This document shows positions 3,996 through 22,084 of a stretch of DNA of 64,000 nucleotides, piece by piece. Positions within the stretch are counted from its first letter, which is position 1. Each line of letters begins with the position of its first letter. Origin of the DNA: Streptomyces atriruber (lineage in GTDB: Bacteria; Actinomycetota; Actinomycetes; Streptomycetales; Streptomycetaceae); contig NZ_LIPN01000028.1 in NCBI RefSeq assembly GCF_001418325.1, positions 1 to 64,000 on the forward strand, read 5' to 3'. The notes beneath the pieces were generated by a model that worked only from the letters and a program-made list of their open reading frames with translations, was not told where the DNA came from and searched no databases. A program made the position numbers and the translations under genes.

Positions 3996-4006
3996 GCACG
4001 CGACGG

Positions 4007-4876: not shown

Positions 4877-4926
4877 AGGGTCCTCCTGGGTTGCGGCGGG
4901 TCGGGGTGTCCGGATGGTGCACTGGG

Positions 4927-4951: not shown

Positions 4952-4991
4952 GGGGACTGCGGGTCAGGGGCGGTGCGGTGGTGATCGCGGG

Positions 4992-7900
4992 TCAGGGACG
5001 GCGCGGCACGGCGCCGCTCGCGACGTTGATCGCCTCCGCCACCGTCCCGGCGTGCGGCGGCCGGACGACGCCGTAGTGATCCGTGGCCAGCACGCCCCAC
5101 TCCAGCGATTCCGGCAGGTGGGCATGCCACCGGGCGCGCTGCTCCGCCGGGCTGCCGAGCGCCGGAAGCCCGGCGAACGGCCGCTCGGCCTGCCAGAGCC
5201 GGGTGACGGTGGTGGCGATCCGGGGCACCTGGTGGGTGGCCATGCTGCGCAGGTTGGTCCGGCAGCAGCGGGCGAGCCGGTCGGCGTACGCGCGGGCCTG
5301 CTGCCCCCCGGGGCCGTCCCCGGCGATGCCGAGCTCGGCGGCGAACACCGTGCTCAGCCGGGTGTCGTCGTACGCCTCGAAGACCGGGCCGCTGCCGGGC
5401 GGCGGCGGGTCGACCAGGTGCAGCGAGCGGGCCGGGTGTCCGGCCGCCTCGGCCTCGGCCGCCATGTCCGTGGCGACCCATGCCCCGAAGGACCAGCCCG
5501 CCAGGTGCCAGCGCCAGGCGTCCTGGGGGAAGCGGGCCCGCAGCGCCGAGGCGTACCGCCGGGCGCGGTCGCGCAGCGTCCAGTCGGCAGGTGCCGTCTG
5601 CCGCAGGCCGGGGTCGGCGATCAGTACGACGGACAGGCTCGGGTCGAGGGCGGCGACCAGGGGACGGTAGGACTGGATGTCCCCGCCGACCGGGTGCACG
5701 AGGCACACCACGTCGGTGCCGGTGCCCTCCTGCCACACCTCCAGCGCGACCTGGTCGGTGCCGGTCTCCGTGCCCGCGCCTTCCTGGCCCGTCGGCTCGC
5801 CCCGCTGTTCGGCCAGGAGCCGCACGATCTCGGTGAGGCTGGCCCGGTGGCTGAAGGAGGCCAGGTCCAGCTCCACCCCGAAGTGCCGGTCGATCTTCTC
5901 GATGAGGTCCAGGAGGGTCAGCGAGTCGGCCCCCAGGTCGTACAGCGACGCGTCGGGGGCGAGATCGTCGACGTCCAGCGCGTCCCGCGTCCACTCGGCC
6001 AACAGGTCGCAGGGCTCCCGGTGCTCCTCGGCGGGCCGCTCGGCGGGTGCGCCGTCCCGACGCGGCGTGCCGGGCACCGGTCCGGCGTAGAAGACGCGTG
6101 ACCGGTCGAGGTCGGTGGTGGACACCAGCACGTGCGGCAGCCGGAGTTCGAGCGCCCGCGCGAACGTGCGCGCTCCCTCGGCGGCGGTCAGACCGACCGC
6201 GAGGTGCGCCTGGTGACGGCTGTCGCTCCGGGTCCCGCGCACCGCCATCCCGGCCTCCCGCCACACGTCCCAGCCGATGCCGATCCGCGCGGTCCGCCCC
6301 GTCCCGTCGCCGCCGTACCGGGCGAACGCGTCGAGCAGGGCGTTGGCAGCCGCGTAGTCGTACTGGCCGACTCCGCCGAGCTGCGCCGACATGGAGGAGC
6401 AGTAGACCGCGACGTCCGGCCGGAACTGCTCGACGAGGAGTTCCACCAGCAGGGCGCCGCGCACCTTGGCGGCATGGGCCCCGTGCGCGGAGCCCGCCTC
6501 ACGAAGGGACAGCAGACCGCCCGCAGGCACCCCTACGGCGTGCACCACGGAGGCCAGTGCCACCGTGCGGGCGGCGATCAGGGCTGCCACCTCCTTCGGC
6601 GGCGTGACGGCGAGATCCGCCTCGACGAGATCGACGCGGTCCGCCCAGCGGGTGAGTTCCTCGGGCAGCCGAGGCCGCCGGGACAGCAGCAGCACGCGTC
6701 CCTCGGTGTGCTGCAGCAGCCAGGCGGCGAGGCCGGAGCCGATGCCGCCGGTGCCGCCGAGGATCAGATGGTCACCGCCCGCGGGCGCCGCGGCGGCCGT
6801 CTGTACCGCGTCTCCCGACGCCGGAGCCGCCGCGCGCAGGGGCAGCGTCACCTGCTCCCACCAGTAGCCCTCGCGCAGCGCCAGATGGCGCGGCGGCGGT
6901 GCGGAGGCCGACGCGACCAGCAGCGCGGACAGCCGCGGGGCCCAGCCGTCCGGGTCCTCGACGTCCACCCAGTGCCCGTCGGGGGCACCCTCCTGCGGCG
7001 CGACCTCGGTGACGCCGGCGAGCAGCGCAGCCTCGGGGCGGGTGACCGCGCCGAGTACCGGCCGGGCCCCGCACGACAGCCACCACGGCCGTACGGTCAG
7101 CTCCCGTGGCGCCCCCTGGAGGGCGCGGACCACGGCGGCGGGGGTGTCCAGGCAGGCCCAGGCCGCCCGGTCGAGCGACTTGTCGCCGACCGACCCGTCG
7201 ATGCCGAGCGGGAGCGTGTGCAGCCAGTCGACCTCCGTGCAGCCCTCGTCGACGAGGGTGTCCAGGACGCGTCGCAGCTGCCCGGGGTCGGCCGGGTCGG
7301 CCTCGAATCGGTCGTGTTCGGGGCGGGCGAAGTGCTCCGCGGCCCTGACCCACACCACGCGGCGGTGGCCCGCGGCGAGCGCGCCGGGGGCGGCGCCGTC
7401 CGGCGGCCCGTCCGCGACGACGACCAACGTCCGCGCGCACGGCGCGACGGCGGCGCCTGCCGTGGCCCGCCGCAGCCGGGTCCACTGCGGCTGGTGCAGC
7501 CAGTCCGCCTCGGGCAGCCGAACCGGTACGGCCACGACGTCGGGTGCGGTGTGCCCGCCGGTCGACGGGGGCGCCGAGGGCCGGGCGGTCGCACGGGGGA
7601 AGTCGTACGGGGCGAGGTCGAACGCCGGGGCGGGGAAGTCCCACGGCGGCTGCGCAGGGCCGTCCGGCCAGGCGAGCGTGCGGCCCGCCAGCCAGGCGTC
7701 GGCCAGCTCCGCTGCCGGGCGGCCACGGGTCTCCAGGGCGGGCCCGGGAACGGGCTCGGGGCGCGCCGCGGCCGCCGTACGCAGCCAAGCGACGGCGGTC
7801 CCCGCGTCCCGGCAGACGGCTGCCGCCCGCAGCGGACCCTGCGGGCGGCCCGCCTGAAGGTGCCGCAACGTGCGGGCGTAGCTCTCGGGATGCCGTGCGA

Positions 7901-10900
7901 GGTGGGCGGCCACGCGCGCGGCGTCCGCGGCGAGTTGGGCCTCGCTCACGGCCGACAGCACGACGAGCGGCACCGTCCCGGCACCCGTGGCCTCCTGCGG
8001 GTCCGTGACCACGGACGGAGCCGGCGCCTCCACGATCACGTGCGCGTTGGTGCCGCCGATGCCGAAGCTGCTCACCGCGGCGACCCGCTCCCGGCCCTCC
8101 GGCCAGGGAAGCGCCTGCGTCGGTATGTAGAACGGCGCCGGGGAGGGACCGATCTCCGGGTTGAGCGCGCGGAAATCACGGGTGGGCGGAACCTGCCCGT
8201 GGTGGACCGCGAGCACGGCCCTGATCAGGCCGACGGCCCCGGCGGCGGCGCCCAGATGACCGATCTGGCTCTTCACCGAGCTGAGGGCGACGTGGTCCGG
8301 CTCGTCCACCCCGAGGGCCTGGCGCAGCGCACCGGCCTCCACCGGGTCGCCGAGCCGGGTACCGGTGCCGTGCGCCTCGACGTACGCCACGTCGGAGCCC
8401 GCGCGGCCGCTGCGGGTCAGCGCGCTGCGGATCACCTCGCGCTGACCCGCCAGGGACGGGGCGCTGTAACTGAGCTTGGCCGCGCCGTCGTTGTTCACCG
8501 CGGAACCGCTGATCAGCGCGTAGACGGTGTCGCCGTCGCGGCGCGCGAGGGCGAGCGGCTTCAGCACGAGCACCCCGGCGCCGCTGCCCCCGACGGTGCC
8601 GCCCGCGTCGTCACTGAAGGGCCGGCAGTGGCCGTCGGGCGAGAAGATGTGCTGCGGACGGTAGCGGTATCCGTCGGTCAGCTCCGGGTCGACGAGCACA
8701 CCGCCCGCGAGCATCACGTCGGCGTCGCCGAGCCGCAGCAGCGAAGCCGCCAGGTGTACGGCGACGAGCGAACTGGAGCACGCCGTCTGGGCGGCGAGCG
8801 CGGGTCCGGTGAGCCCGAGATGGAAGGCGACCTTGGTGGCGAGGAAGTCCTTCTCGTGGTGGAGGGCCAGCTGGAAGTCGTCGGGCAGCGCGTCGGAACC
8901 GGTCTCGCGGAGCATCGCCCGGAAGTAGGTGTTCTCACCGGCGCCCGCGATCAGGCCGGTCCGCAGCGCACCGGGATCGGCGATGCCCGCGTGGGCGAGC
9001 GCCTCGACACAGGTCATGAGCAGCTGGCGCTGCTGCGGGTCCATCAGCCGGGCTTCCTGACGGCTGATGCCGAACCGTGCCGGGTCGAAGTCCAGCATCC
9101 CGTCCAGTTGGCTGCGCGCGCCGACCAGGCCGTCCGGCGCGTCGAAGTGCTCGATGCCGCTCCGCCCGGAGACCACCAGGTCCCAGAAGGCCGCGAGGTC
9201 CGGTGCGCCGGGCGCGCGGACGGCCATCCCGATGACGGCGACGGGGTCGTCCGCGGCGGCAGTGGGGGAGTCGGTCGTACGCGGGTCGGTCGCCGGATCC
9301 GTGCCCGGGTCCGTGCGCCGGAGGAATCCCGCCAACTCCCTGGGAGTGACGTGTTCGAAGAGGTCGGCGACGGTGAAGCGGAGCCCGAGCCCCGCGGTGC
9401 AGCGCAGATGGAAGCGCATCAGGCCGAGGCTGGAGGCGCCCGCCGCGAAGTAGGTCTGGTCCGGCGCGATGGGCAGGCCGGTCACTTCTTCGAAGACGGC
9501 GGCCAGTTGCGCCTCCCGCGCGGACGGCGGCGGCGCGGTGCCGCTGCCGCCGTCGGGGGTGCCCGTGAGCTCCCGGCCGGGCGCGCGCAGCGCGGCGTCC
9601 CGGTCGAGCTTGCCGCTCGGGGTGCGCGGCAGCCGTTCGAGGAGACGGAAGCGCTCGACCCGTATGTGCCCGGGGAGCAGCCCGGCCAGGTGCTCGCGCA
9701 GCTCGGCGGGCGACGGCGCGTCGCCGCGGCACTGGAGACAGGCGACCAGCGCGGACCCCTCGACGGCGACGACGGCCCCGAGGACGGCGTCGTGCCGCGT
9801 CAGCGCGGCCTCGACCTGCCCCGGCTCCAGCCGGTGGCCGCTCAGTTTGATCTGGTCGTCCGCGCGGCCGAGGCAGTGCAGAAGACCGTCGTGGTCGAAG
9901 CGCGCACGGTCGCCGCTGCGGTAGAAGAGCCCGTCGCCGGGGAGCCGGACGAACCGCTCCCGGTTCAGCGGGGTCTCACCCAGATAGCAGGGCTCGTCCG
10001 GCACGCCGCCGATGAGCAGTTCACCGGCGCAGCCGGGCGGCAGTGGGAGGTCGGCCTCGTCGACGACGCGCAGCACCGCACCGGCCACCGGGTGACCGAT
10101 CGCCGGACGGTCCGGCCAGTCCGCCGGATCGCCGTCCAGGCACAGACCGCTGACGACGTGCGTCTCGGTCGGGCCGTAATGGTTGAACAGCCGTGAGCCG
10201 GGCATGCCCGCGAACCACCTGCGGACGGCGCCGGTGCAGACCAGCTGCTCGCCCGCGGTCACCACCTCCCGCAGCCGGGACGGGTATCGGCCCAGGTGCA
10301 CGGCGTGCTCGGCGAGCAACTGCAGGGCCACGTACGGCAGGAAGAGCCGTTCGACGCCCTCCGACTCCAGCTGGTCGAGCAGCGCGGGGACGTCGCGTCG
10401 CAGGGCGGGATCGATCAGCCGCAGACAGCCGCCGGTGCACAGGGTCCCGAAGATCTCCTGGAAGGAGACGTCGAAGGAGAGCATGGCGAACTGCTGGGTC
10501 AGCGCGGGCGCGCCCAGGCCGCCGGGCCCCGCCTGCCAGTGCAGCAGGTTGCTCAGCGTGCGGTCGAAGACCCGCACACCCTTCGGGCGTCCGGTGGAGC
10601 CGGAGGTGAAGAGGGTGTACAGCGGCCGGGTGCCCCGGTGCGCGGGGAGCGACGGTCCGTCGGCGGCATCCTCGGCCCCGGCGTCGGAACCCGCGCCGGA
10701 CCCCGCCTCGGACAGCGTGACGTGCAGGCGGGGCGCGCCGCCGGGGTCCACCCCGTCGAACGCCGTCCCGTCGCCCGGCAGGAGCAGCACGCACAGCGGG
10801 TCGGTCTGCTCCAGCACCTGCCGGAGCAGCGCGGGTGGGTACGACGGGTCGAGCGGGACCGCCGTCAGGTTCAGCCGGGCCAGCGCGAGGAGCGCCACCA

Positions 10901-13900
10901 CGTGCTCGACGGACGGTTCGAGGAAGAGCGCGACGTGGCTCTGTTCGTGCGCTTCCGGCAGCCGCAGCGTCGAGGCCAGCTCCGCCGCGAGCCCGGCGGC
11001 GTACCCGTCGAGTGCCGCGTAGGAGACGGTTCCTGTCGCGGTCCGCAGCGCCGGTGCGTCCGGGGTCCGGGCCGCCTGGCGGGCGAAGCCCTCGGCGACC
11101 GTGGTCCACGGCAGCTCGGCGGGTACGCCCCGGCCCGGCTCGGGCAGCGAGCCGCGGTACGGCGCGACCAGCTCCGCCGGTGTGGTGTCCGGGGTCCCGG
11201 ACAGCGCGGTCAGACCCTGCCGGAACAGGGACGCCAGTGCGGCGGCCTGGTCGGCGTCGAGGCGGTCGTCGGCGTACTCCCAGAGACACTCCAGGCCCTC
11301 GGGACGGTCGACGACCGTCAGGGTCACCGGGCACTTGGCCTCGGCGGGCACCGGCCACAGCGGGCGCGCGGCGCATCCCGGCAGGGTGAGGGAGTCGTAG
11401 TCGGTGTTCTCCAGTACGAGGAGGAAGTCGAACGGCGCGTCGTTCTCGGCCCCGCGCGCGAGCGCGGGCAGGACGTCGGCGAGCGCCACGTCCTGACGCT
11501 GCATCAACGCGCGTACGGCCGTGCCGGTCCGCGCCACCTCGTCCCGCACGGACGCCCGCGGGTCCACGGACAGCGGCAGGAGCACGGTGTTGGCGAACAT
11601 GCCGACGCTGTCCGTGAACTCGCGCACCGGCCGGTGCGCGACCGGCGCCGCGACGCGCAGCCGGGTCCGGCCGGTCACGCCGTACAGCGCCCAGGCGTAG
11701 ACACCGGCCAACAGCTCGAAGCGCGTCAGCCCGTGCTCGCCGCAGAGCCGGTCCAGAGCGGCGCGGCCGGACGCGTCGAGCGCGTCGCACAGCAGCCGTC
11801 CCCCGGCGTCGTGACCGGGCCGGGGCAGCGGGAGCGACTGCGCTCCGGCGGAGTCCGCCGCGGCGGCGGCGGTCCCGGCGTACAGGGCGGACAACTCGTC
11901 GCGCTGCGCCGCGTACCCGGGGCTCGTGTGCCAACGGTGCTGCCAGTCGGCGAAGTCCAGCGGGGTGGGAGTCCCGTCGGACGACGTGGGCACCGCGTCG
12001 TCGGCGACGGCCGCCGCGTACCCGGCCGACAGGTCGCGCAGCAGCACGTTGACCGACCAGCCGTCCACGGCGACGTGGTGCAGGTGCAGCAGCAGCGTGC
12101 CGCCGTCCTTTGACGGCAGCCAGCACGCGCGCAGCATCCTGGGCGACGACAGGTCGAACGGCACGGCGAAGAAGGCGTCCTGCGGACCGTCCGCTCCGCC
12201 CGCGCTTCCACCACTGGTCGCGTCCACGGACGGCGCGGTCGACGGCGCGGTCGTCCAGGGGTCGTACGGCTCGCCCACCCGCTGCCGCAGCCCGTCGGCG
12301 GTCGCCGCGAAACCGGTGCGCAGCGCCGGATGCCGCGCGACCAGCGCGGCGAGAGCCGCACGCAGCGCCTCCTGGCACACCGGGCCCGTGACGTCGAAGG
12401 CCAGCCGGACGTCGTAGGCGCGGGAGTCCGGCGACCGCTGCTGCAAGAACCAGAGGCGTTCCTGCTCGCCGGTGGCGGGGCCGGACAGGGCCCCGGCCGC
12501 GGTGGCTTCCGGCAGCGCGGGAGCGTCGTCGGTCCGCGCCTCGCGCACGGCGTCCGCGACACCGGCGAGGTCGCCGTGCAGCACACGGTGCGCGGGCACC
12601 TCGCAGCCCAGACGGCGACGGATCCCGTACCGCAGCCGCAGCGCCTTCAGCGAGTCGCCGCCGGACGCGATCCACCGGTCCTCGGGGCGGAGCCCTGGAA
12701 CGCCCAGGATCTCGCCCGCGAGGCCGAGCACCACGCGCAGCGCTTCGTCCGCGGGCTCCTGAGCGGGGTCCGTCGGGCGGCTCGCGGCCTCGGGGCGCCA
12801 CGGCGCGGCGCCGCTCGCGCGAAGCGCCGCCTCGTCGACCTTGCCGTTTGCGGTGAGCGGCAGGGCGGGGACGCGGTAGAGGTGGTGCGGGCGCATGTAG
12901 CCGGGCAGCCCGGCAGCCAGGTGTTCCTCGAACCCGGCCCAGGTGAGGGCGGGTTCGGCGACGAGATAGGCGAGCAGCTCAGCCGGGCCGCCCTGCTCGT
13001 CCCGGCGGGCGCACACGTGCACCTGTCGCACGGAAGGGTGCTCGGCGATGTGCCGCTCCACCTCGCCGGGCTCGATGCGGAAGCCGCGCACCTTGACCTG
13101 CCGGTCGGCGCGGCCGACGTAGGTGAGGTCGCCGTCGGCGGAGCGCACCAGGTCGCCGGTGCGGTAGTACGCGGTGGCCGTGCCGTCGTCGCCGGGCAGC
13201 GTCACGAAGCGGCGGGCGGTCTCCGCGGGCAGGTTGCGGTAGCCGGCCGCCACGCCCGTGCCGGAGAGGAGGAGCTCGGCCTCCTCGCCGGGCGCGGCAG
13301 GACGGGTGGTGCCCGGCGCGACCAACGCCATGCCGGTCTCCGGCAGCAGGCGCCCGAGGGGCACGACGGAGGCGTCGAAGTCCCGCGGGATCGGGTGGTG
13401 CAGCGCGAACGTCGTGCACTCGGTGGGGCCGTAGACGTTGTGGACCCGGGTGCGGCTGCCGGGCGCGGCGTTGTGGCGGTACCAGCGCCGGACGAGCGGC
13501 GCGTTGAGCTGCTCGCCGCCGACCAGCAGATCCGTCAGCCCGGAGAAGCAGCCGGGCTCCGTGTCCACCACGGCGTTGAACAGCGACGTGGTGACGAAGG
13601 CGGTCTGGACCCGTTCGCGGCGCAGCACGGCGGCCAGCCGTTCCGGGGACTGCACGTCCTCGTCGGCGAGGACGACGCAGCAGCCGCCGGTCAGCAGCGG
13701 CGCCCACACCTCGAAGCTCAGCGCGTCGAAGGCGGGGTTCGACAGGAAGGCGAAGCGGGCGCCTTGCGCGTCCGGCAGGAACTCCGGGTCGGCCAGGCGC
13801 AGGATGCCCGCGTCGCGCACCTCCACGCCCTTGGGGCGGCCCGTGGTGCCCGAGGTGTAGAAGACGAAGGAGACCGGCGCGGGCGCGGCGGGCGGCGGCC

Positions 13901-14339
13901 CGTCCGCCGTACGGACCGGAACGCCGAGCAGCGCGTCGGCCGACAACGCGGTGACCCCGTCGGGCAGCTCGGAGAGGAGAGCCCGGGCGGACGGGAACGT
14001 GCCGTCGTGCACGAGGAGCCGGGCGCCGGAGTCGTCGAGGATGTGACCGATGCGGTCGGCGGGGCTCAGCCGGTCGGTGGGGACGACCCGGCCACCGAGC
14101 CGGAGGATGCCCAGCATGACGCAGACGAGCCGCCACGACCGGGAGAGTCCCACGGCGACCGCGTCGCCGGGGCCGATCCCGCGTGCGCGCAGCCCGGCCG
14201 CGACGGCGGCTGCCGACGCGTCGAGCACGGCGTGGCTGAGGGTCTGATCACCGTCGACGACGGCAGGGGCGGTGGGGGTCCGCAGGCTCTGTTCGTGTAC
14301 CGCTCGGGCCAGGCCGACGGAACGGGATGAGGTGCGCAT
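4992..14339 (-). CDS. Hybrid NRPS/PKS, A-T-C-A-T-KS-KR-T-TE
   Basis: 3115-residue cytoplasmic megasynthase. Approximate domains: A1 1-510; T1 (Ser563 in GGDSL); C 620-1050 (HHxxxDG at 754-760); A2 1080-1590; T2 (Ser1637); KS 1690-2110 (Cys1854 in TACSSS, His1990 in HGTGT, His2028); KR 2240-2740 (GGTGGIG at 2528, Tyr2662, Asn2666); T3 (Ser2806); TE 2870-3115 (Ser2950 in GWSFG). By alignment with GrsA the A2 code reads DVQFVAHVVK, close to known proline codes. A1 reads about DAFFLGVTFK, branched-chain-like. No acyltransferase lies between KS and KR: only the KS-AT linker and the short post-AT linker remain. The inferred product is an aminoacyl-prolyl unit extended by one acetate and reduced to a beta-hydroxy acid, which is detoxinine-like. 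The start overlaps the upstream stop as TGATG. Confidence 0.93.
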   Translation of the reverse strand: MRTSSRSVGLARAVHEQSLRTPTAPAVVDGDQTLSHAVLDASAAAVAAGLRARGIGPGDAVAVGLSRSWRLVCVMLGILRLGGRVVPTDRLSPADRIGHILDDSGARLLVHDGTFPSARALLSELPDGVTALSADALLGVPVRTADGPPPAAPAPVSFVFYTSGTTGRPKGVEVRDAGILRLADPEFLPDAQGARFAFLSNPAFDALSFEVWAPLLTGGCCVVLADEDVQSPERLAAVLRRERVQTAFVTTSLFNAVVDTEPGCFSGLTDLLVGGEQLNAPLVRRWYRHNAAPGSRTRVHNVYGPTECTTFALHHPIPRDFDASVVPLGRLLPETGMALVAPGTTRPAAPGEEAELLLSGTGVAAGYRNLPAETARRFVTLPGDDGTATAYYRTGDLVRSADGDLTYVGRADRQVKVRGFRIEPGEVERHIAEHPSVRQVHVCARRDEQGGPAELLAYLVAEPALTWAGFEEHLAAGLPGYMRPHHLYRVPALPLTANGKVDEAALRASGAAPWRPEAASRPTDPAQEPADEALRVVLGLAGEILGVPGLRPEDRWIASGGDSLKALRLRYGIRRRLGCEVPAHRVLHGDLAGVADAVREARTDDAPALPEATAAGALSGPATGEQERLWFLQQRSPDSRAYDVRLAFDVTGPVCQEALRAALAALVARHPALRTGFAATADGLRQRVGEPYDPWTTAPSTAPSVDATSGGSAGGADGPQDAFFAVPFDLSSPRMLRACWLPSKDGGTLLLHLHHVAVDGWSVNVLLRDLSAGYAAAVADDAVPTSSDGTPTPLDFADWQHRWHTSPGYAAQRDELSALYAGTAAAAADSAGAQSLPLPRPGHDAGGRLLCDALDASGRAALDRLCGEHGLTRFELLAGVYAWALYGVTGRTRLRVAAPVAHRPVREFTDSVGMFANTVLLPLSVDPRASVRDEVARTGTAVRALMQRQDVALADVLPALARGAENDAPFDFLLVLENTDYDSLTLPGCAARPLWPVPAEAKCPVTLTVVDRPEGLECLWEYADDRLDADQAAALASLFRQGLTALSGTPDTTPAELVAPYRGSLPEPGRGVPAELPWTTVAEGFARQAARTPDAPALRTATGTVSYAALDGYAAGLAAELASTLRLPEAHEQSHVALFLEPSVEHVVALLALARLNLTAVPLDPSYPPALLRQVLEQTDPLCVLLLPGDGTAFDGVDPGGAPRLHVTLSEAGSGAGSDAGAEDAADGPSLPAHRGTRPLYTLFTSGSTGRPKGVRVFDRTLSNLLHWQAGPGGLGAPALTQQFAMLSFDVSFQEIFGTLCTGGCLRLIDPALRRDVPALLDQLESEGVERLFLPYVALQLLAEHAVHLGRYPSRLREVVTAGEQLVCTGAVRRWFAGMPGSRLFNHYGPTETHVVSGLCLDGDPADWPDRPAIGHPVAGAVLRVVDEADLPLPPGCAGELLIGGVPDEPCYLGETPLNRERFVRLPGDGLFYRSGDRARFDHDGLLHCLGRADDQIKLSGHRLEPGQVEAALTRHDAVLGAVVAVEGSALVACLQCRGDAPSPAELREHLAGLLPGHIRVERFRLLERLPRTPSGKLDRDAALRAPGRELTGTPDGGSGTAPPPSAREAQLAAVFEEVTGLPIAPDQTYFAAGASSLGLMRFHLRCTAGLGLRFTVADLFEHVTPRELAGFLRRTDPGTDPATDPRTTDSPTAAADDPVAVIGMAVRAPGAPDLAAFWDLVVSGRSGIEHFDAPDGLVGARSQLDGMLDFDPARFGISRQEARLMDPQQRQLLMTCVEALAHAGIADPGALRTGLIAGAGENTYFRAMLRETGSDALPDDFQLALHHEKDFLATKVAFHLGLTGPALAAQTACSSSLVAVHLAASLLRLGDADVMLAGGVLVDPELTDGYRYRPQHIFSPDGHCRPFSDDAGGTVGGSGAGVLVLKPLALARRDGDTVYALISGSAVNNDGAAKLSYSAPSLAGQREVIRSALTRSGRAGSDVAYVEAHGTGTRLGDPVEAGALRQALGVDEPDHVALSSVKSQIGHLGAAAGAVGLIRAVLAVHHGQVPPTRDFRALNPEIGPSPAPFYIPTQALPWPEGRERVAAVSSFGIGGTNAHVIVEAPAPSVVTDPQEATGAGTVPLVVLSAVSEAQLAADAARVAAHLARHPESYARTLRHLQAGRPQGPLRAAAVCRDAGTAVAWLRTAAAARPEPVPGPALETRGRPAAELADAWLAGRTLAWPDGPAQPPWDFPAPAFDLAPYDFPRATARPSAPPSTGGHTAPDVVAVPVRLPEADWLHQPQWTRLRRATAGAAVAPCARTLVVVADGPPDGAAPGALAAGHRRVVWVRAAEHFARPEHDRFEADPADPGQLRRVLDTLVDEGCTEVDWLHTLPLGIDGSVGDKSLDRAAWACLDTPAAVVRALQGAPRELTVRPWWLSCGARPVLGAVTRPEAALLAGVTEVAPQEGAPDGHWVDVEDPDGWAPRLSALLVASASAPPPRHLALREGYWWEQVTLPLRAAAPASGDAVQTAAAAPAGGDHLILGGTGGIGSGLAAWLLQHTEGRVLLLSRRPRLPEELTRWADRVDLVEADLAVTPPKEVAALIAARTVALASVVHAVGVPAGGLLSLREAGSAHGAHAAKVRGALLVELLVEQFRPDVAVYCSSMSAQLGGVGQYDYAAANALLDAFARYGGDGTGRTARIGIGWDVWREAGMAVRGTRSDSRHQAHLAVGLTAAEGARTFARALELRLPHVLVSTTDLDRSRVFYAGPVPGTPRRDGAPAERPAEEHREPCDLLAEWTRDALDVDDLAPDASLYDLGADSLTLLDLIEKIDRHFGVELDLASFSHRASLTEIVRLLAEQRGEPTGQEGAGTETGTDQVALEVWQEGTGTDVVCLVHPVGGDIQSYRPLVAALDPSLSVVLIADPGLRQTAPADWTLRDRARRYASALRARFPQDAWRWHLAGWSFGAWVATDMAAEAEAAGHPARSLHLVDPPPPGSGPVFEAYDDTRLSTVFAAELGIAGDGPGGQQARAYADRLARCCRTNLRSMATHQVPRIATTVTRLWQAERPFAGLPALGSPAEQRARWHAHLPESLEWGVLATDHYGVVRPPHAGTVAEAINVASGAVPRRP

Positions 14340-17300
14340 CAGTCCTCGGTCGTAGCGGTCGTAGCGGTCGTAGCGGTCGTAGCGGTTTCGGCGGTCGTGG
14401 CGGGTGCGTCGCCGGGCCGGGCGAGCCGGTCCGCGATCAGGTCGGCGATCCGGGGTATCCGCTCGCCCTCCAGGACGTCCCAATGGCCGCCGTCGACCAT
14501 CTCCACGGTGAGCCCGGCACCGGCGCGGTCGCGCCAGAACCGTCGCAGCGCCTCGCCCGCGGCCACGGGGTCGCCGCCCTCGACGACCTCCGCCTCGGCG
14601 GCCTGTACGAGGAGCAGCGGGGCGTCCGAGCGCTCCGGCACGTAGTCGCGGGCAGCCTCACGGTTGTGGTTGTAGATCCTGAAGTAGCGGTCGATCTGGG
14701 CGTCGTCGATCCCGGGGTACATGCCGTTGAAGCGGACCAGCTTGTCGCGGAACTCGGCGGCGTCCACCGGCGCGAACCTCGCCCGTTCCACCGGGTCGTC
14801 CGTCCCGTGCGTGTCGAGCAGCACGACGGACACCCCGTGGTGCCCGGCCTGCGCGAGCCGCCGCCCCATCTCGTGGGCGACGAGTCCGCCGAAGGAGAGA
14901 CCGCAGATCACCAGGGACTCGTCCGGTTTGGCCTGCAGCAGCGTCAGGTAGTGCTCCGCCATCGCCTCCACCGAGCGCAGCGGCTCCTCGCCCGGGTCGA
15001 TGCCCTGTGCCTGGACGCCCTGCACGTGGATGCCGTCCGGCAGGGCGCCGGCCAGCGGGAGATAGCAGAAGGCGGTGCCGCCCGCCGGATGGACGCAGAC
15101 CACCCGGCGTCCGTCGTCCCGGCCCGCCCGGATCTCGACGAGGCCGTCGTCGGGCGTCACCGGTGTCTGCCCGCGCAGCCGTGCCGCGAGCCGTTCCACC
15201 GTCGGGTACTGGAGGACGTCGCGGGTCGACAGGGTCTGGCCGAACTCCTCCCGGATCAGGTGCGCCACCTTGATGGCGGAGAGCGAGGTGCCGCCCACCG
15301 CGAAGAAGTCGTCGGTGATGCCGATGTCGCGGTGCAGCAGCACCTGCCGCCATATTCGGTACAGCGCCATCTCGACCCGGTCGCGTGGCGCCAGGGTGTT
15401 GACCTGGTCGGACCGCGACGCGCGGGCGCGCTCCAGGACTTCCTTGCGGTCCAGCTTTCCGTTGCGGTTCAGCGGCAGCCGGGGGAACTCGGCGAAGAGC
15501 GACGGAATCATGTAGTCCGGCAGCCGTTCGGCGAGCGCCGCGCGCCACTGGGCGGGTGTGGAGTCCGGGGCCTCGCCCCGGCCGATGCCCGCGACGAGGC
15601 ACAGTTCCCCGGTCTCGTCCCGGTCGGCGAGGACCGCGGCCTCCTGCACACCGGGCAGCTCGCGCAGGGCCGCCGCGACCTCACCGGGCTCGATGCGGAA
15701 TCCGCGCAGCTTGACCTGGTCGTCGGCCCGGCCGACGAACTCGTAGTTCCCGTCGGGCAGGCGGCGTGCCAGATCACCCGTGCGGTACACCCGCTCGCCC
15801 GGTACGAACGGGTCGGCGGGGAAGCGCTCCTCGGTCAGGTCGGGCCGGTTGAGGTAGCCCCGGGTGACACCGGCCCCGCCGATGTACACCTCGCCGACGA
15901 CCCCGGGAGGCACCGGTTCGCGGCGCCGGTCGAGCAGATAGATCCGGGTGTTGTCGACCGGCCGCCCGATCGGGGAGCGACGGTCCAGGTCCCGCGGCTC
16001 GTTGTGGGTGATGCTGTAGACGGTGGTCTCGGTCGGCCCGTAGACGTAGCAGACGCGCAGGCCCGGCAGGGCCGCACGGAGCCGCCACAGCGCCTGCTCC
16101 GGCAACGGTTCGGCGCCGGTGGCCAGTTGACGCAGCGACAGCCCGTCGAGGCGGGTGTCCGGGTCCTCGTCGATCCAGGTGATGTACGAGGCGGGCAGCC
16201 ATGCGTGCGCGATCCGGTGCTCCCGCATCCAGTCGAGCAGCACCTCGGGGTCGCCGCGCACTTCGTCGGGCACGAGATGCAGTACGCCACCGGTGGTCGG
16301 CGGCAGGAACAGCTCGTGCACGGACGCGTCGAAGCCGATGCTGGCCCATACGGAGGACGGCTCACCGGGCAGTGCGCCGTAGGCGGCGAGCCAGTTCTCC
16401 AACAGGTTGGCAACGTTGCCATGGGTGGCCGCGACGCCCTTGGGGCGCCCGGTCGAGCCCGACGTGTAGATCACGTAGGCGAGCTGAGACGGCGACGGCG
16501 GCTCCCAGGGCGCGTCGTCGCGGTCCCCCTCGGCCTCCACCGCCGCCAGCTCCTGCCACGGCCCCGGCGGGTCGGCGACATCGCCGATCACCAAGGTGGG
16601 CGCGGCCTCCTCGACGATGGCCCGGAGCCGCCCGGGCGGCTGGCCGGGATCCAGCGGCAGATACGCGGCACCGGCCTTCAGGACGCCCCAGATGCCGACG
16701 ATCAACTCGGCCGTGCGGCCGCAGTGCAGGCCGACGACCTGCCCGGGCCGCACACCACGGGCGTGCAGGGCGTGCGCGAGCCGGTTGGCCCGCCGGTCCA
16801 GCTCGGCGTAGCTCAGCCGCGTACCGCCGCAGACCAGCGCCGGTGCGTCGGGCCGCAGCCGTACCTGCTCGGCGAACCGCTCGACGGGCCCGGCCACCGG
16901 ACCCGAGGTGACCCGGCCCTGCCCCTCCGCGAGGAGCTCCGCGCGCTCGTCCGCGTCGAGCAGCGCGTATCCGGTGATCTCGCGCTCGGGGTGCCGGGCC
17001 AACTGCTCCAGCACACGGGTGAAATAGCGGCCGAACCGCTCGGCCGTGTCGTGGTCGAACAGCGCGCGGGCGTAGTCGAGGTGCCCGACGACGCCACCGT
17101 TCTCCTCGTGCACCGACAGCGTGAGGTCGAACTTCGCGGGTGCGTACGGGATGTCGAGGGGCTCGACCCGTGCCCCGGGCAGCCGCAGCTGGCCCCGACG
17201 GGTGGCGCCCCACGCGAGCATCGTCTGGAACAGCGGGCTGTGCGAGAGGTCGCGGTGCGGGTTGACCGCGCTCACCACCCGCTCGAAGGGCAGGTCCTGG

Positions 17301-18322
17301 TGGTCGAGCGCCCCGCGCAGCGCCGCACGTACGCGGCCGAGCGCCTCGGCGCCGGTCGGGTCGCCGGACAGATCGGTGCGCAGCGCCAGGGAGTTGACGA
17401 AGAAGCCGATCAGCTGTGCGTCCTCCGGGCGGCGTCGGCCAGAGACCGGAATGCCCACGACCGTGTCCGACTCCCCGGAGAGCAGACCGAGGAGGACGTG
17501 CCAGCCGGTGAGGACCGCGGTGAACAGGGTGCCGCGCTGGGCGCGGGCGGCGGCGCGCAGCGCGTCCGTGAGCCCGGGGGAGAGGCGGATCGGAACCCGG
17601 CCGCCCGAGTGGTCCTGGAGCAGCGGACGCGGCCGGTCGGTCGGGAGCGCGAGCAGCGCGGGAGCGTCCGCCAACTGCTCCCGCCAGTACGCGGTCTGCG
17701 CGGCGGCCTCCTCGCCTTCGACCCATGCGTGCTGCCGCGCCGCGTGGTCGGCGAACTGCGCGGGCAGCGGCGGCAACGGGTCCGGCTCGCCGCGCAGCAG
17801 GGCGGCGTAGACCGTGCTCAGCTCCGGCAGCATGATCTCCATCGACCGTCCGTCGAAGACGGAGTGATGCAGCGTCAGCAGCAGGGCGTGCCGGTCCGGC
17901 GCGAGCGTGAGGAGCCGTCCCCGGGCGAGCGGCCCGGCGCCGAGGTCGAAGGGGGTCTCGCACTCCTCGCGCTGCCGGGCGACGAGGAGTTCCTCGGCGT
18001 CGGGGCGGCCGGACAGATCCTCCGAGCGCAGCGCGAACCCGGCCCCGGGCGGCGCGACTTCCTGCCGCGCCTCGCCCTCCACCGCGACGAAACGCGTGCG
18101 GAGCGTCTCGTGCCGCGCGGCCACGGCGTCGAGGGCCCGCGCGAGCAGTGCCCGGTCCAGGTCCCCCTCGATGAGGTAGGCCATCTGCTCGTTGTACGCC
18201 GCGTGGGAGCCCTCGGCCTGCTCCAGCGCCCACAGGCGCTGCTGGCCGAAGGAGGAGAGCGGCCGTGCACCGGATCGCGGTGCGGTGGAGGACTCGGGGC
18301 GGGGGGTGTGTATCGCCGTCAA
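14339..18322 (-). CDS. Nonribosomal peptide synthetase, C-A-T-TE
   Basis: 1327-residue single-module NRPS, first gene of the operon. The condensation domain occupies about 20-460, with the intact motif HHSVFDG at 152-158. The adenylation domain is at 480-970 (YTSGSTGRPKG near 619), the thiolation site is Ser1013 in GGTSL, and the thioesterase has Ser1143 in GLSFG. The A-domain pocket reads about DAHW-AG-VVY-K by eye and I assign no substrate. The start is a TTG with AGAAGGA nine bases upstream, a rare start codon. The C-terminal tail is a short Ala-Thr-Thr repeat encoded by a 9-bp tandem repeat. Having its own TE beside a second TE-bearing synthetase suggests it adds a side residue, for example as an ester on a hydroxyl, rather than the main chain. 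No MbtH gene is seen nearby. Confidence 0.93.
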   Translation of the reverse strand: MTAIHTPRPESSTAPRSGARPLSSFGQQRLWALEQAEGSHAAYNEQMAYLIEGDLDRALLARALDAVAARHETLRTRFVAVEGEARQEVAPPGAGFALRSEDLSGRPDAEELLVARQREECETPFDLGAGPLARGRLLTLAPDRHALLLTLHHSVFDGRSMEIMLPELSTVYAALLRGEPDPLPPLPAQFADHAARQHAWVEGEEAAAQTAYWREQLADAPALLALPTDRPRPLLQDHSGGRVPIRLSPGLTDALRAAARAQRGTLFTAVLTGWHVLLGLLSGESDTVVGIPVSGRRRPEDAQLIGFFVNSLALRTDLSGDPTGAEALGRVRAALRGALDHQDLPFERVVSAVNPHRDLSHSPLFQTMLAWGATRRGQLRLPGARVEPLDIPYAPAKFDLTLSVHEENGGVVGHLDYARALFDHDTAERFGRYFTRVLEQLARHPEREITGYALLDADERAELLAEGQGRVTSGPVAGPVERFAEQVRLRPDAPALVCGGTRLSYAELDRRANRLAHALHARGVRPGQVVGLHCGRTAELIVGIWGVLKAGAAYLPLDPGQPPGRLRAIVEEAAPTLVIGDVADPPGPWQELAAVEAEGDRDDAPWEPPSPSQLAYVIYTSGSTGRPKGVAATHGNVANLLENWLAAYGALPGEPSSVWASIGFDASVHELFLPPTTGGVLHLVPDEVRGDPEVLLDWMREHRIAHAWLPASYITWIDEDPDTRLDGLSLRQLATGAEPLPEQALWRLRAALPGLRVCYVYGPTETTVYSITHNEPRDLDRRSPIGRPVDNTRIYLLDRRREPVPPGVVGEVYIGGAGVTRGYLNRPDLTEERFPADPFVPGERVYRTGDLARRLPDGNYEFVGRADDQVKLRGFRIEPGEVAAALRELPGVQEAAVLADRDETGELCLVAGIGRGEAPDSTPAQWRAALAERLPDYMIPSLFAEFPRLPLNRNGKLDRKEVLERARASRSDQVNTLAPRDRVEMALYRIWRQVLLHRDIGITDDFFAVGGTSLSAIKVAHLIREEFGQTLSTRDVLQYPTVERLAARLRGQTPVTPDDGLVEIRAGRDDGRRVVCVHPAGGTAFCYLPLAGALPDGIHVQGVQAQGIDPGEEPLRSVEAMAEHYLTLLQAKPDESLVICGLSFGGLVAHEMGRRLAQAGHHGVSVVLLDTHGTDDPVERARFAPVDAAEFRDKLVRFNGMYPGIDDAQIDRYFRIYNHNREAARDYVPERSDAPLLLVQAAEAEVVEGGDPVAAGEALRRFWRDRAGAGLTVEMVDGGHWDVLEGERIPRIADLIADRLARPGDAPATTAETATTATTATTATTED
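14350..14385. repeat. Four tandem copies of a 9-bp unit
   Basis: Four exact copies of TCGTAGCGG, followed by degenerate copies to about 14400, at the 3' end of the C-A-T-TE NRPS gene and immediately before the next gene's start. The unit length is a multiple of three, so copy-number change would keep the frame and only lengthen the Ala-Thr-Thr tail. Confidence 0.95.
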
Positions 18323-18727: not shown

Positions 18728-18758
18728 TTGACCCTCACGTGGCGTGATGCCCGATAGT
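18728..18758 (+). promoter_or_regulatory. MerR-type promoter with 19-bp spacer
   Basis: The -35 box TTGACC (18728-18733) and -10 box GATAGT (18753-18758) are separated by 19 bp, the overlong spacing recognised by MerR-family activators. A perfect palindrome TCACG-TGG-CGTGA (18735-18747) sits inside the spacer as the likely operator. The start codon at 18766 lies where transcription should begin, so the mRNA is probably leaderless. Confidence 0.75.
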
Positions 18759-18765
18759 CCGTGGC

Positions 18766-19881
18766 ATGGAGGAGCACCTGACCGTGGGGCGTGTGGCCGA
18801 GCTGGCCGACGTGAGCGTCCGCACGCTGCACCACTACGACGAGATAGGCCTCGTACGACCGTCCGCGCGGACCGGGGCCGGGTACCGGGCCTACTCCGCG
18901 GGCGACGTCGAGCGACTGCGGGAGGTGCTCGGCTACCGACGGCTGGGCTTCGGACTGCGGGAGATCGCGGACCTGGTCGACGACCCGGCCACCGACGCCG
19001 TCGCGCACCTGCGCCGGATGCGCGGTCTGCTGCTGGAACAGCGCGATCGCGCCGCCGCCACGGTGACGGCCATCGACAGGGAACTGGAGGCACGTGCCAT
19101 GGGGATCAGGACGACGCCGGAGGAGCAGTTGAAGGTGTTCGGCACGCAGTTGTACGACACCATCGGGTCCGCCTACCCGGCGACGCGGCGCACCGAGCCG
19201 CGGATCGCCGCGCGGATCTGGGATGCGCTGGGGGACGCGCGGACGGTGCTGAACGTCGGGGCGGGCACCGGTTCCTACGAGCCCCAGGACCGCGATGTCA
19301 CGGCGGTGGAACCGTCGGCCGTCATGCGGGCGCAGCGTCCGGCGGGCGCGGCGCCGTGCGTGGCCGCCGCCGCGGAGAGCCTCCCGTTCGAGGACCGGTC
19401 CTTCGACGCCGCGATGGCGGTCAGCACCGTTCACCACTGGCCGGATCCGGTCGCCGGGCTGCGCGAGATGCGGCGCGTGGCCCGCCGCGTGGTGGTGTTC
19501 ACGTACGACGCGAGTGACACCGGCTGGCGTCAACGCTTCTGGCTCACCCGCGACTACCTGCCCGAATTCGCCGGCCTTCTCGCCGACTGGCCCTCTCTGG
19601 CCGATCTGACCCGTGCGATCGACGGCCGCGCGGAACCGGTGCTCGTCCCGTGGGACTGCGCCGACGGCTTCTTCGAGGCCTACTGGCGCCGTCCCGAGGC
19701 GTATCTGGAGGACCATGTGCGCCGCGCGGTGTCGGTGTGGACCCGAGTCGGCCCGGAGGCCGAGCGGCGCGCGGTGGACAGGCTGCGCGACGACCTCTCC
19801 TCGGGCCGGTGGGCGGAGCGCAACCGCGACCTCGTCGCCCTGGACGCGGCGGAGTTGGGCCTCCGCCTGCTCGTGGTCTGA
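18766..19881 (+). CDS. MerR-family regulator fused to a class I methyltransferase
   Basis: 371-residue two-domain protein. Residues 1-75 are a MerR winged helix (LTVGRVAELADVSVRTLHHYDEIGL) and about 76-110 form the dimerisation helix. The junction MGIRTTPEEQLKVFG resembles the point in TipAL where the drug-binding domain begins. Here it is followed instead by a SAM-dependent methyltransferase-like domain with motif I VLNVGAGTGSYEP near residue 160 and a post-motif HHWPDP segment. The gene is divergent from the NRPS operon and has its own MerR-type promoter, so autoregulation is likely. The methyltransferase domain could act as a SAM or ligand sensor, or as an enzyme. Regulation of the NRPS operon is an inference from position. 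Confidence 0.88.
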   Translation: MEEHLTVGRVAELADVSVRTLHHYDEIGLVRPSARTGAGYRAYSAGDVERLREVLGYRRLGFGLREIADLVDDPATDAVAHLRRMRGLLLEQRDRAAATVTAIDRELEARAMGIRTTPEEQLKVFGTQLYDTIGSAYPATRRTEPRIAARIWDALGDARTVLNVGAGTGSYEPQDRDVTAVEPSAVMRAQRPAGAAPCVAAAAESLPFEDRSFDAAMAVSTVHHWPDPVAGLREMRRVARRVVVFTYDASDTGWRQRFWLTRDYLPEFAGLLADWPSLADLTRAIDGRAEPVLVPWDCADGFFEAYWRRPEAYLEDHVRRAVSVWTRVGPEAERRAVDRLRDDLSSGRWAERNRDLVALDAAELGLRLLVV

Positions 19882-19898: not shown

Positions 19899-20282
19899 TC
19901 AGGAGTCGAAGCGGCCGCGGGCGCTCTCGATGTGACCGAGGTGCTGCTGGGTCCAGTCACAGATGACGTCGACGGCGGCGCGCAGGGCCCGGCCCGGCGC
20001 GGTGAGGGTGTACTCGACCCGAGGCGGCACGGTGGGGTGCACCTTCCGGTCGACCAGGCCGTTGCGCTCCAGCATGCGCAGGTTCTGGGTGAGCATCTTG
20101 TGGCTGATGCCCTCGACCTCGTCGCGCAGTTCGCTGAAGCGCAGCGTGCCCTCGCCGAGCGCCTCGATGATCAGAAGCGCCCACTTGTTGGCGACGTCCG
20201 AGAAGATCTCCCGCGCCAGCGAGTCCGCGCGCCGCAGATCGGCGTCCTCGGGCAGGCCGTTGAGCTGCAGTTTGGATCTCAT
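19899..20282 (-). CDS. HxlR-family transcriptional regulator
   Basis: 127-residue winged-helix protein. The HxlR core is clear: FSDVANKWALLIIEALGEGTLRFSELRDEVEGISHKMLTQNLR-type sequence at about residues 27-70, then ERNGLVDRKVHPTVPPRVEYTLT. HxlR proteins are usually local repressors of a divergent gene, but here the gene is convergent with the MerR fusion 17 bases away, and upstream of it lies a co-oriented secreted-protein gene. Its target is therefore not evident. Confidence 0.9.
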   Translation of the reverse strand: MRSKLQLNGLPEDADLRRADSLAREIFSDVANKWALLIIEALGEGTLRFSELRDEVEGISHKMLTQNLRMLERNGLVDRKVHPTVPPRVEYTLTAPGRALRAAVDVICDWTQQHLGHIESARGRFDS

Positions 20283-20366: not shown

Positions 20367-20789
20367 TCAGCAAGGGCGGATGTACCACGCGTCGGACCAG
20401 TTGCCCCAGCCCTTCTTGTTGTTCGGCGGTATCTCCGGCCACACGAGCTTCTTGTCCGCGTTGAGCACCTTGGCGTACGCGCCGTCCTGGTTGTTGATGT
20501 AGGCCCCGACCTTCTCCCAGTTGGAGAGCTCGTAGGTGCCGCACTTCCAGAACACGTGGATCTTCCAGCTCTTCTTCGCCTCGTCCCAGGTCTCCGTGCA
20601 GAAGCGGCCGCTCGGACAGGAGCTCAGCCCGTCCGTGGTGTGGAAGACCCTCTCGGGCGCGGGAGAGACCGTCGGTGATACCGCCGCCGGCGACACCGGC
20701 CCACTGGCCTGGGCCTGGGTCGTCACCAGGGCTCCTGACAGGGCGGCCAGGGCGACGGCTGTCGTGAGTACGGAGTGTTTGATCGGCAT
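20367..20789 (-). CDS. Small secreted protein, peptidase inhibitor I36-like
   Basis: 140-residue exported protein. The N-terminus is a Sec signal peptide (positively charged MPIKHS, a hydrophobic stretch, then a likely cleavage after ALVTTQAQA). The mature part is small and cysteine-containing, starting CPSGRFCTETWDEA and ending in WYIRPC. It resembles Streptomyces I36-type metalloprotease inhibitor domains, which are beta-sandwiches with paired cysteines. The ATG at 20789 is preceded by GGGAG; the longer frame to 20840 would place an arginine-rich stretch before the signal peptide and is unlikely. The family assignment is by resemblance only. Confidence 0.75.
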   Translation of the reverse strand: MPIKHSVLTTAVALAALSGALVTTQAQASGPVSPAAVSPTVSPAPERVFHTTDGLSSCPSGRFCTETWDEAKKSWKIHVFWKCGTYELSNWEKVGAYINNQDGAYAKVLNADKKLVWPEIPPNNKKGWGNWSDAWYIRPC

Positions 20790-20924
20790 GGGCTCGAACT
20801 CCCTCGGTTGCGTTCGGCGTGGTGCGGGCCTTTCGCGCACAGCCTGGGCGAGCCGGGGAGGGGAGCGCCCGTGGTTTTGGCTCCAGCCGAAACGTCGAGG
20901 GGCCGCAACATCGAGGGGGCGTCC

Positions 20925-21908
20925 TCAGCAACCGCCGAGGAGCCGGAGCCCCAAGGGGGTCGCGGTGTGCAGGATCCGCTTTCCGTCGCGTCGGGACGCG
21001 ATGAGTCCTCCCTCCCGCAGTACGGCCAGCTGCTGGCTGGCGCTCGGCAGGGAGACGCCTGTCGCGTGGGCGAGTTCGGAGGTGGTGGGGCAGGTGAGCG
21101 CGGCGGTCTCGTACAGGAGCGCGGCGCGGGTGGGACCCAGCAGCCGGGCCAGCGACGAGGGGGAGCCGGCAGGCGCCGAGGGTGTCTTGTCGACCGGGTA
21201 GATGAGCACCGGCCGCAGTTGGGTGTCGGCCAGCGTGATGGGGCGCCGCCAGCAGAAGTACGACGGGATCAGGAGCAGGCCCCGGCCCTGTAGATGCAGG
21301 TCGTGCCGGACCGGATAGTCGACCGTCAGCACGGGCGGCTCCCACACCGCCATCGGCCGCAGGCTGTCCAACAGGGCCCGTGTCCCGCCGTCCGCGAGGG
21401 CGCGGGTGCGCAGGGCCCGGTCCGCCGCCGTCGCCGCGTCGATCCGGTCCCACACCGGCGTGATGAGCTCCCGGTGGTAGGTGCGGAGCTTTCCGCCGAG
21501 CTCAGTGAGCGCGGCCCTGTCACCGCGCGCCAACTCCGCACCAGCCCAAGGGCGTCCACCGCCCGCCGACAGCAGGGACAGCTCGTGGCGCAGTCGGCGG
21601 CGCGGCGTCGCGAGCACCCGGTCGATGCCCACCCGCAGCTCAGGAGGTCCGCCTTCGACGGGCGGGGTGAGGAAGTCGGGGAAGTAGGACGCCCGCGGCA
21701 CCAGACTCGTCAGCGCCGACGCCGCCGCTCGGCCGCCCCGCCCCTGCCGCAGCAGTCCTCCGGCCATCCGCCGCCACGGCGCGAAGGCGAGGGCCCCCTC
21801 GCGCGTCTGCAGGCGGCACAGGCTGCATACGATCTCCCACAGCGGGTCCGGATTCCGGGCGAGTCGTACGTTCGCCAAGTCGTCGCCGGTGAAATGGATG
21901 CGCAGCAT
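20925..21908 (-). CDS. ArsR-like winged-helix regulator with long N-terminal domain
   Basis: 327-residue protein with an ArsR/SmtB-type winged helix at the C-terminus (about 255-325: LLYETAALTCPTTSELAHATGVSLPSASQQLAVLREGGLI). The N-terminal 240 residues are a domain often seen in Streptomyces regulators of this build, beginning LRIHFTGDDLANVRLARNPDPLWE. No metal-binding cysteine pair of the ArsR type is evident in the helix, so metal sensing is unlikely. The ATG at 21908 follows a run of eight Gs that can serve as the ribosome-binding site. The target is unknown; the gene is divergent from glutaminase. Confidence 0.85.
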   Translation of the reverse strand: MLRIHFTGDDLANVRLARNPDPLWEIVCSLCRLQTREGALAFAPWRRMAGGLLRQGRGGRAAASALTSLVPRASYFPDFLTPPVEGGPPELRVGIDRVLATPRRRLRHELSLLSAGGGRPWAGAELARGDRAALTELGGKLRTYHRELITPVWDRIDAATAADRALRTRALADGGTRALLDSLRPMAVWEPPVLTVDYPVRHDLHLQGRGLLLIPSYFCWRRPITLADTQLRPVLIYPVDKTPSAPAGSPSSLARLLGPTRAALLYETAALTCPTTSELAHATGVSLPSASQQLAVLREGGLIASRRDGKRILHTATPLGLRLLGGC

Positions 21909-22084
21909 GGCTTCCCCCCCCGTTGGCCTTCGACGCTCCACCAAGACTCTGACACGCTCGACATCCCGGACGAGGGCACATCTCGGCCAGGCGTTATCCT
22001 GTGGCCGCGACCGACCACAAAGCCCCGTAACCAGCGGCTTTTCAGGAGGAAACGGCCGCGTCATACAGGCAGAAAGCTCAGATT

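Follow-up and report, generated by a model that had tools for sequence, protein, structure and literature searches.

The window analyzed here, a 64,000-nucleotide stretch of the Streptomyces atriruber genome, contains a gene in which a MerR-type DNA-binding head is joined to a class I SAM methyltransferase. The reading frame begins with ATG and encodes 371 amino acids (Table 1). Pfam places MerR_1 at residues 6–72 (5.9e-14) and Methyltransf_11 at residues 162–240 (2.2e-14), and in comparisons with solved structures residues 6–110 match the N-terminal domain of TipAL (2VZ4, 1.4e-27) and residues 126–369 match the methyltransferase 3EGE (2.2e-25). Divergent from the fusion gene, at a distance of 443 bp, lies an NRPS reading frame on the minus strand (14339–18322). 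It belongs to a hybrid NRPS–PKS region (2434–18322) whose two large genes carry A, C, KS, KR, T, and TE domains, and which also has a TauD-type dioxygenase and an adenylosuccinate-lyase-like gene. On the other side, an HxlR regulator gene (19899–20282, minus strand) is convergent with the fusion gene. Farther on are a protein without a Pfam match that may be secreted (20367–20840) and, beside it, a DUF5937 protein with an ArsR-type HTH (20925–22064, minus strand).

Table 1. Features of the fusion gene and its promoter, in window coordinates
Feature	Position	Strand	Basis
-35 element, TTGACC	18728–18733	+	TTGACC itself in 68 copies
19-bp MerR-type spacer with operator, arms CCTCACG-TGG-CGTGATG, left arm from 18733	18734–18752	+	Family layout
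-10-like element, GATAGT (family consensus CATAGT)	18753–18758	+	Family layout
Whole fusion gene, long form, including stop codon	18766–19881	+	ORF calling, homologue search
MerR winged-HTH DNA-binding head, residues 1–72	18766–18981	+	Pfam, 2VZ4 match
Coiled-coil (dimerization) helix, residues 78–111	18997–19098	+	AlphaFold2 helix 78–111; 2VZ4 alignment to residue 110
Candidate internal start: GGAGG (19086–19090), 8 nt, ATG (19099–19101, M112); homologue of TipAS start	19086–19101	+	Motif count, TipAL comparison
Retained TipAL α6/switch segment, residues 112–126; I114 and F125 are the counterparts of TipAL I112 and F123	19099–19143	+	Alignment with TipAL
Second candidate internal start: GGAGGAG, 9 nt, GTG (19135–19137, V124)	19119–19137	+	Sequence
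Class I SAM methyltransferase domain, residues 128–371; motif I VLNVGAGTGSYE at 161–172; E182; cap PWDCADGF at 295–302	19147–19878	+	Pfam, 3EGE, alignment, fold

A first-pass annotation of the window had described this gene as a MerR DNA-binding domain and dimerization helix fused to a class I methyltransferase, and had pointed to a sequencing frameshift joining two genes as the danger to that description. The Pfam, 2VZ4, and 3EGE matches bear the description out. A frameshift or assembly error is excluded: among 391 genomes of the order there are 72 full-length copies, of which 70 have an uninterrupted frame (the remaining two, in genomes G151 and G144, have one in-frame TGA each), and purifying selection acts on both domains. 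In random pairs (up to 599 of 600), the median dN/dS is 0.17 for the MerR head, 0.25 for the coil, 0.27 for the linker, and 0.22 for the methyltransferase; the median dS is ~0.4–0.5 in the head, coil, and methyltransferase. The fusion of a MerR head to a methyltransferase is thus real.

The architecture is best understood against TipAL of Streptomyces lividans. In that protein, helix α6 (residues 113–123) together with I112, F123, and F126 constitutes a switch by which the antibiotic releases the DNA-binding head, and the tipA gene, which is autoregulated, has two start codons that yield TipAL and TipAS (PMC7762955). The S. atriruber genome has a TipAL orthologue of its own (L003), with a Pfam TipAS domain (2.2e-43). 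The fusion shares with the TipA class the N-terminal MerR HTH (PF00376/PF13411) and the long coiled coil after it, the latter seen in the AlphaFold2 model and the 2VZ4 alignment. It has no match to the TipAS domain (PF07739) in Pfam up to E 0.1; the methyltransferase is found there instead. At the junction the orthologue has AMEAKKMGINLTPEEKFEVFG-DHDP and the fusion ELEARAMGIRTTPEEQLKVFG-TQLYDTIG; in stand-alone methyltransferases, QLYDTIG comes a few residues after the N-terminus. TipAL thus runs through the end of α6 and is followed by the enzyme, where the Pfam TipAS domain would otherwise be. That Pfam domain starts at about TipAL residue 131, and the methyltransferase at about residue 128 of the fusion. 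Retained, too, is the opening stretch of the TipAS isoform, M-G-I-x-x-T-P-E-E-x-x-x-V-F-G, ~15 residues; the third switch residue, F126, is lost, and Q128 is present instead. The likeness to TipAL proposed by the first-pass annotation fits, in the TipA-type promoter, the retained α6 segment, and the retained internal start described below. Its more exact claim, that the methyltransferase begins precisely where the TipAL ligand domain does, holds for the Pfam domain but not for the TipAS isoform, whose first segment is still there. The junction is poorly modelled by AlphaFold2 (pLDDT below 50 at residues 113–116 and 119–127).

The enzyme part has the characteristics of a class I methyltransferase, namely a Rossmann fold, a glycine-rich motif I, and an acidic residue after strand 2, and is predicted to bind SAM. 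In a 71-row alignment, G165, A166, G167, G169, Y171, E172, and E182 are invariant. Position 163 of motif I, whose counterpart is usually Asp or Glu, is Asn in all 71 rows. Invariant as well are P295, D297, C298, D300, G301, R309, P310, and W325 of the cap, also in the 12 stand-alone enzymes of this alignment. The model of the domain has a mean pLDDT of 82.7, and its best structural match is again 3EGE (Z 25.9, rmsd 1.9 over 230 residues, 30% identity). Stand-alone relatives occur at 11 loci and are 69–84% identical to the methyltransferase domain among the matches listed; no TipA-type operator, allowing up to eight substitutions, was found in the sequence up to 2.5 kb upstream of these loci. 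A more distant stand-alone relative (45–47% identity) is present in the S. atriruber genome itself (L002, positions 1480–2331, contig C206). In a quick tree, from which L028 and near-identical fusion rows had been dropped (121 to 115 rows), all fusions fall in one clade with an SH-aLRT of 97, and the stand-alone enzymes lie outside; L121, labelled stand-alone there, is a frameshifted fusion. Because of this topology, one fusion event would suffice to explain the family.

These properties bear on what the domain does. One possibility is that it is a sensor only, which binds SAM or SAH, or SAM together with a ligand, and reports the methylation state to the MerR head. It does occupy the effector position of a MerR protein and its Rossmann motif is intact, but the same cap residues are invariant in the 12 enzymes that stand alone, with no MerR head attached, and a pure sensor would regulate only itself, the sole detected output of the system being the protein itself. 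We consider this reading unlikely. Among the roles that the first-pass annotation had suggested for the domain, modification of the bound ligand fits the intact SAM motif and the existence of stand-alone relatives, and sensing of the product of the neighboring cluster is unsupported; pure SAM sensing is less likely because methyltransferases 69–84% identical to the domain occur without a MerR head. Another possibility is that the enzyme methylates a macromolecule (rRNA, tRNA, or protein), conferring resistance by target protection, with the MerR head providing drug-responsive control. Self-contained resistance genes do behave in this manner, and the list of structural matches includes, far down, METTL6 and a pre-40S ribosomal chain. 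But the matches that follow 3EGE are mostly small-molecule methyltransferases near Z 14 (HvrF, TmtA, GtmA, AtmM, CouO, and TylM1), and Pfam finds no RNA-binding domain in the fusion protein, so that this reading is likewise an unlikely one. The structural comparison points to a fold and not to a particular substrate.

Promoters controlled by MerR proteins typically have long spacers of 19–20 bp with the operator inside (PMC9909328). The sequence upstream of the fusion gene has this layout, with the -10-like hexamer ending 7 nt before the start codon in the window copy. A pattern of the form TTGNNN-N19-N6 with a CTCACG-like spacer start, which presupposes the TTG and the 19-bp spacer and thus measures neither independently, fits 91 of the 93 full-length copies, so that by layout the operator within a 19-bp spacer, another property of the TipA class, is present. 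The pattern does not constrain the hexamer at the -10 position or how far it lies from the start codon: the hexamer is [CG]ATNGT in 86 of the 91 copies, and the first ATG or GTG follows it by 7 nt in 74 copies and by 4–7 nt in all 91. Since the promoter ends 7 nt before the start codon, the fusion mRNA is probably leaderless. The TipAL orthologue of the same genome differs in this respect, its start lying some 30 nt farther down, whereas that of the fusion comes directly after the -10 element. Some tens of bases upstream of TTGACC or downstream of the stop codon are common to subsets of the copies; the window copy has neither.

The 28-mer of the operator, with up to three mismatches, has a single site in the 8.9-Mb genome, and the looser class TTGNNCCTCACGNRRCGTSANG, with up to one mismatch, has two, at the fusion gene and at the TipAL orthologue. 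In the window, the only match is at 18728–18751 and points toward the fusion gene. Across the 391 genomes we found 98 operator sites in 93 genomes, compared with one for a reversed-pattern control. Behind them lie 70 full-length fusions, 15 fusion relics, 10 glyoxalase-type genes, one TipAL (L172), one other MerR gene (L141), and one unclassified gene (L136), all 28 sites without a full-length fusion having been fetched for this classification. L179 and L180, the two full-length fusions outside the pattern, have recognizable variants of it. This distribution, together with the neighborhood discussed below, is relevant to a further alternative, in which the enzyme does not detoxify but makes a methylated signal or product that induces its own gene, as an autoinducing feedback enzyme. 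An autoregulated fusion of enzyme and regulator would be suited to such a loop, and there is no known toxic substrate. Against it, a signal should have further regulator targets, of which the operator searches found none, and no recurring partner genes adjoin the fusion; we regard it as distinctly improbable.

The coding sequence also retains what appear to be the signals for a second start, which the sequence comparison suggests were inherited from TipAL. Codon 112 is ATG in 62 of the 93 copies and another codon in 31. An in-frame GGAGG followed after 5–10 nt by ATG occurs at codon 112 in 52 of the 93 copies, and elsewhere only once across all 93 genes. A group of 21 copies has GTG at codon 116 instead of ATG at codon 112, and codon 124 is GTG or ATG in 72 of the 93. 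Some start at codon 112, 116, or 124 is thus available in 90 copies and in 3 there is none, a total that the two extra candidate positions make easier to reach. All 30 TipAL orthologues have the internal ATG (M110), and GGAGGCACG before it is common to the fusion and to 8 of the 12 orthologues displayed.

A test based on an excess of synonymous codons gave no peak at the internal start, its highest windows being at codons 74–90 (87 copies). GC3 and mRNA folding were adopted after this result had been seen, with the TipAL orthologues as a later control. The 15-codon windows of lowest GC3 in the fusion family lie within codons 103–127, with a minimum of 0.74 at codons 109–123 (gene mean 0.894, sd of windows 0.040, 87 copies). 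Folding was done for 25 of the 57 ATG-112 rows and for all 21 GTG-116 rows. In the former, the window with the weakest mRNA structure begins at codon 103 (mean dG −7.9 versus −15.9, sd 3.3, 25 copies); in the latter, the corresponding values are −6.7 versus −15.8 (sd 4.0, 21 copies). The family has a near-equal window at codon 259 (−8.7). The 30 TipAL orthologues have their GC3 minimum, 0.880 against a mean of 0.955, at codons 101–115, near M110, nearly tied with the 5′ end of the gene (0.884), and their dG minimum, −7.8, at codon 106, the next being −9.7. In the window's own gene, GC3 is 0.80 at codons 101–115 and lowest, 0.73, at codons 266–280. A domain border could also lower GC3. The two-start-codon signals of the TipA class are present in the fusion sequence and are matched by the TipAL control, and we infer that a short, methyltransferase-only form may be made from the internal start, the two products remaining putative.

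The first-pass annotation had rightly placed the fusion gene divergent to the NRPS genes and had linked it to that cluster or its product. As a pathway-specific regulator of the adjacent NRPS/PKS cluster, the protein would be expected to have a conserved neighborhood, and the divergent NRPS reading frame 443 bp away is the observation in favor of this reading. The operator, however, faces the fusion gene, is 405 bp away from where the NRPS reading frame starts, and recurs in the genome only at the TipAL orthologue. The search of the fusion's neighbors that had been suggested brought out no conserved one: the commonest neighbor family recurs in 14 loci at varying distances, and those families that keep a fixed distance do so in three or four loci, all from Salinispora. 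This survey draws on 29 loci with ~1.5 kb of flank, several others ending at contig ends. With no conserved neighbors, the link to the cluster is unsupported, and since the only operator in the window also faces the fusion gene, NRPS-linked regulation was ruled out as a candidate; we assign it very little credence. A search for empty sites through HxlR orthologues in relatives showed homology ending a few bases past the HxlR gene, with a different sequence beyond it each time, and because of these differing flanks the borders of an insertion could not be set.

The phylogenetic distribution instead points to a gene that moves with its own promoter. Full-length copies, 69–100% identical and including that of the window, occur in 72 of the 391 genomes of the order. 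A further genome scan gave at least 80 loci, of which 63 carry the fusion in full length and 11 the methyltransferase on its own; in the other 6 the copy is partial, cut, or broken. Five of these 63 fusions have near-identical counterparts in the other, 29-locus set, possibly because the genomes are the same. The 93 full-length rows used throughout (the window, 29, and 63) were kept from 121 loci plus the window by requiring an alignment start of at most 5 and an end of at least 365; they include six near-identical pairs, whose removal leaves 87, and one row, L028, has an in-frame stop. The hosts are Streptomyces, Kitasatospora, Embleya, Micromonospora, Salinispora, Actinoplanes, Dactylosporangium, Catellatospora, Nonomuraea, and others. 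Among the matches listed, 18 of the 25 Micromonosporaceae loci are 87–92% identical to the window copy (range 79–92%), whereas TipAL orthologues within the window's genus, Streptomyces, are 66–79% identical; by sequence, then, fusion copies from different families resemble each other more closely than TipAL copies from one genus do. Streptomycetaceae, Micromonosporaceae, and Streptosporangiaceae are intermingled in one well-supported clade. Together, these patterns indicate that the fusion gene crosses family borders by horizontal transfer, taking its promoter along.

Incidental inspection brought no carrier element or repeat to light. In a plasmid collection, 43 records match the fusion, and in 17 the match covers at least 80% of the query; of these, three matched in two or four pieces, and one record, at 11.85 Mb, is surely a chromosome. 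Ten of the 17 carry the annotation “MerR family transcriptional regulator,” six list none, and one record is unannotated. Viral contigs gave one weak partial match (residues 7–79, 42%). Two near-identical fusions of Catellatospora tritici (L098 and L099), on different scaffolds with identical displayed flanks (75 nt upstream and 90 nt downstream), represent a recent duplication or an assembly duplicate.

The 15 relics that retain the operator (L123–L135, L137, and L138) comprise truncations, frameshifts, and internal deletions, the frame being left open across the gap in L129, L134, L137, and L138; L123 and L131 were judged by eye from their first 8–12 codons, without a tblastn match. The gene thus often decays and is lost. 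It is conceivable that it is costly or selfish, in the manner of a toxin, and the ratio of 15 relics to 70 full-length genes at operator sites does indicate high turnover. But both domains are under purifying selection, there is no recurring partner gene, and resistance to a compound that is met only patchily predicts high turnover equally well. This alternative seems very unlikely.

We therefore return to the TipA likeness and to the reading that we prefer, of an autoinduced one-gene cassette that is TipA-like but carries an enzyme where TipA sequesters the drug; we judge it somewhat more probable than all else together. In the history it implies, a stand-alone small-molecule SAM methyltransferase replaced, once, the TipAS domain of a TipAL-type gene beyond the α6 switch. 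A dimer of the long form would bind its own promoter, at the operator within the 19-bp spacer. A ligand (probably a natural product doubling as the substrate, and possibly aided by SAM) would enter the methyltransferase domain, whereupon the retained switch would free the head to activate transcription of its own gene. From the internal start (M112, V124, or codon 116 in some relatives) a methyltransferase-only short form could be made, as TipAS is made from tipA. This form would methylate and disarm the compound, and the falling ligand concentration would shut the promoter off. Promoter and gene together would be a complete unit, able to spread by horizontal transfer. The parts of this scheme differ in standing. 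The fusion, the promoter layout, the lack of other operator targets in its own genome, the internal start signals, the sufficiency of one fusion event, and the transfer and loss are read from the sequences. That the short form is made, that the ligand is the substrate, and that methylation occurs and protects are inferred; in particular, an effector that methylates and disarms its inducer is suggested because the sequestering domain has been exchanged for an enzyme. The fuller version, a one-gene, two-product inducible detoxification cassette roaming the Actinomycetota, with sensor, activator, and enzyme in one polypeptide and with the substrate inducing through the catalytic pocket, is more tentative, and we hold it to be plausible rather than probable.

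Several known systems resemble the fusion in part. Autoinduction in the TipA class is already known; the exchange of TipAS for an enzyme is what sets the fusion apart. The fusion shares with TipAL/TipAS the MerR head, coiled coil, α6, operator in a 19-bp spacer, and internal ribosome-binding site with ATG, but it is without the TipAS domain, has a SAM methyltransferase from about residue 127, and has lost the third switch residue. We have filed it as a TipA variant, although it would work in a TipA-like manner, because the TipAS domain, a defining feature of the class, is absent. BmrR and SkgA likewise combine a MerR head, matched by sequence, with a C-terminal ligand domain, but their ligand domains are GyrI-like (BmrR) or TipAS (SkgA) rather than methyltransferases (PMC7762955). 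The putative methyltransferase 3EGE of Anabaena variabilis, whose function is also putative, shares its fold across the whole methyltransferase domain and matches that domain only. The stand-alone actinobacterial methyltransferases of Planobispora, an Actinomycetota MAG, and Sphaerisporangium (L106, L110, and L113) share the N-terminal QLYDTIG but are unfused and have no TipA-type operator match upstream. In the open-access literature searched, we found no report of a MerR–methyltransferase fusion.

If our preferred reading is correct, the TipA control chassis would accept other cargo, an enzyme having been substituted for the sequestering domain with the promoter, switch, and internal start kept, and the α6 switch could be tested as a portable module. 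The protein would be a MerR regulator with an active site as its ligand pocket, and the gene an uncharacterized methylation-based protection gene common in Streptomyces and Micromonospora. Its own promoter could be used to screen for the inducer.

The operator class is also found before a different enzyme-like gene under TipA-type control. At 10 loci (L139, L140, L170, L171, and L173–L178) a glyoxalase-type gene lies behind it, as the first gene, with its ATG directly after the -10 element, and in nine of the 10 a MerR head comes next. At two of these loci the Pfam Glyoxalase matches are weak (21.5 and 20.3 bits, against a curated cut-off of 20.6). The regulators of L140 and L176, the two checked among the nine, have clear Pfam TipAS domains. 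These loci differ from the fusion in that enzyme and regulator are separate genes and the regulator keeps TipAS; apparently, they are its two-gene counterpart, an enzyme together with a TipA regulator.
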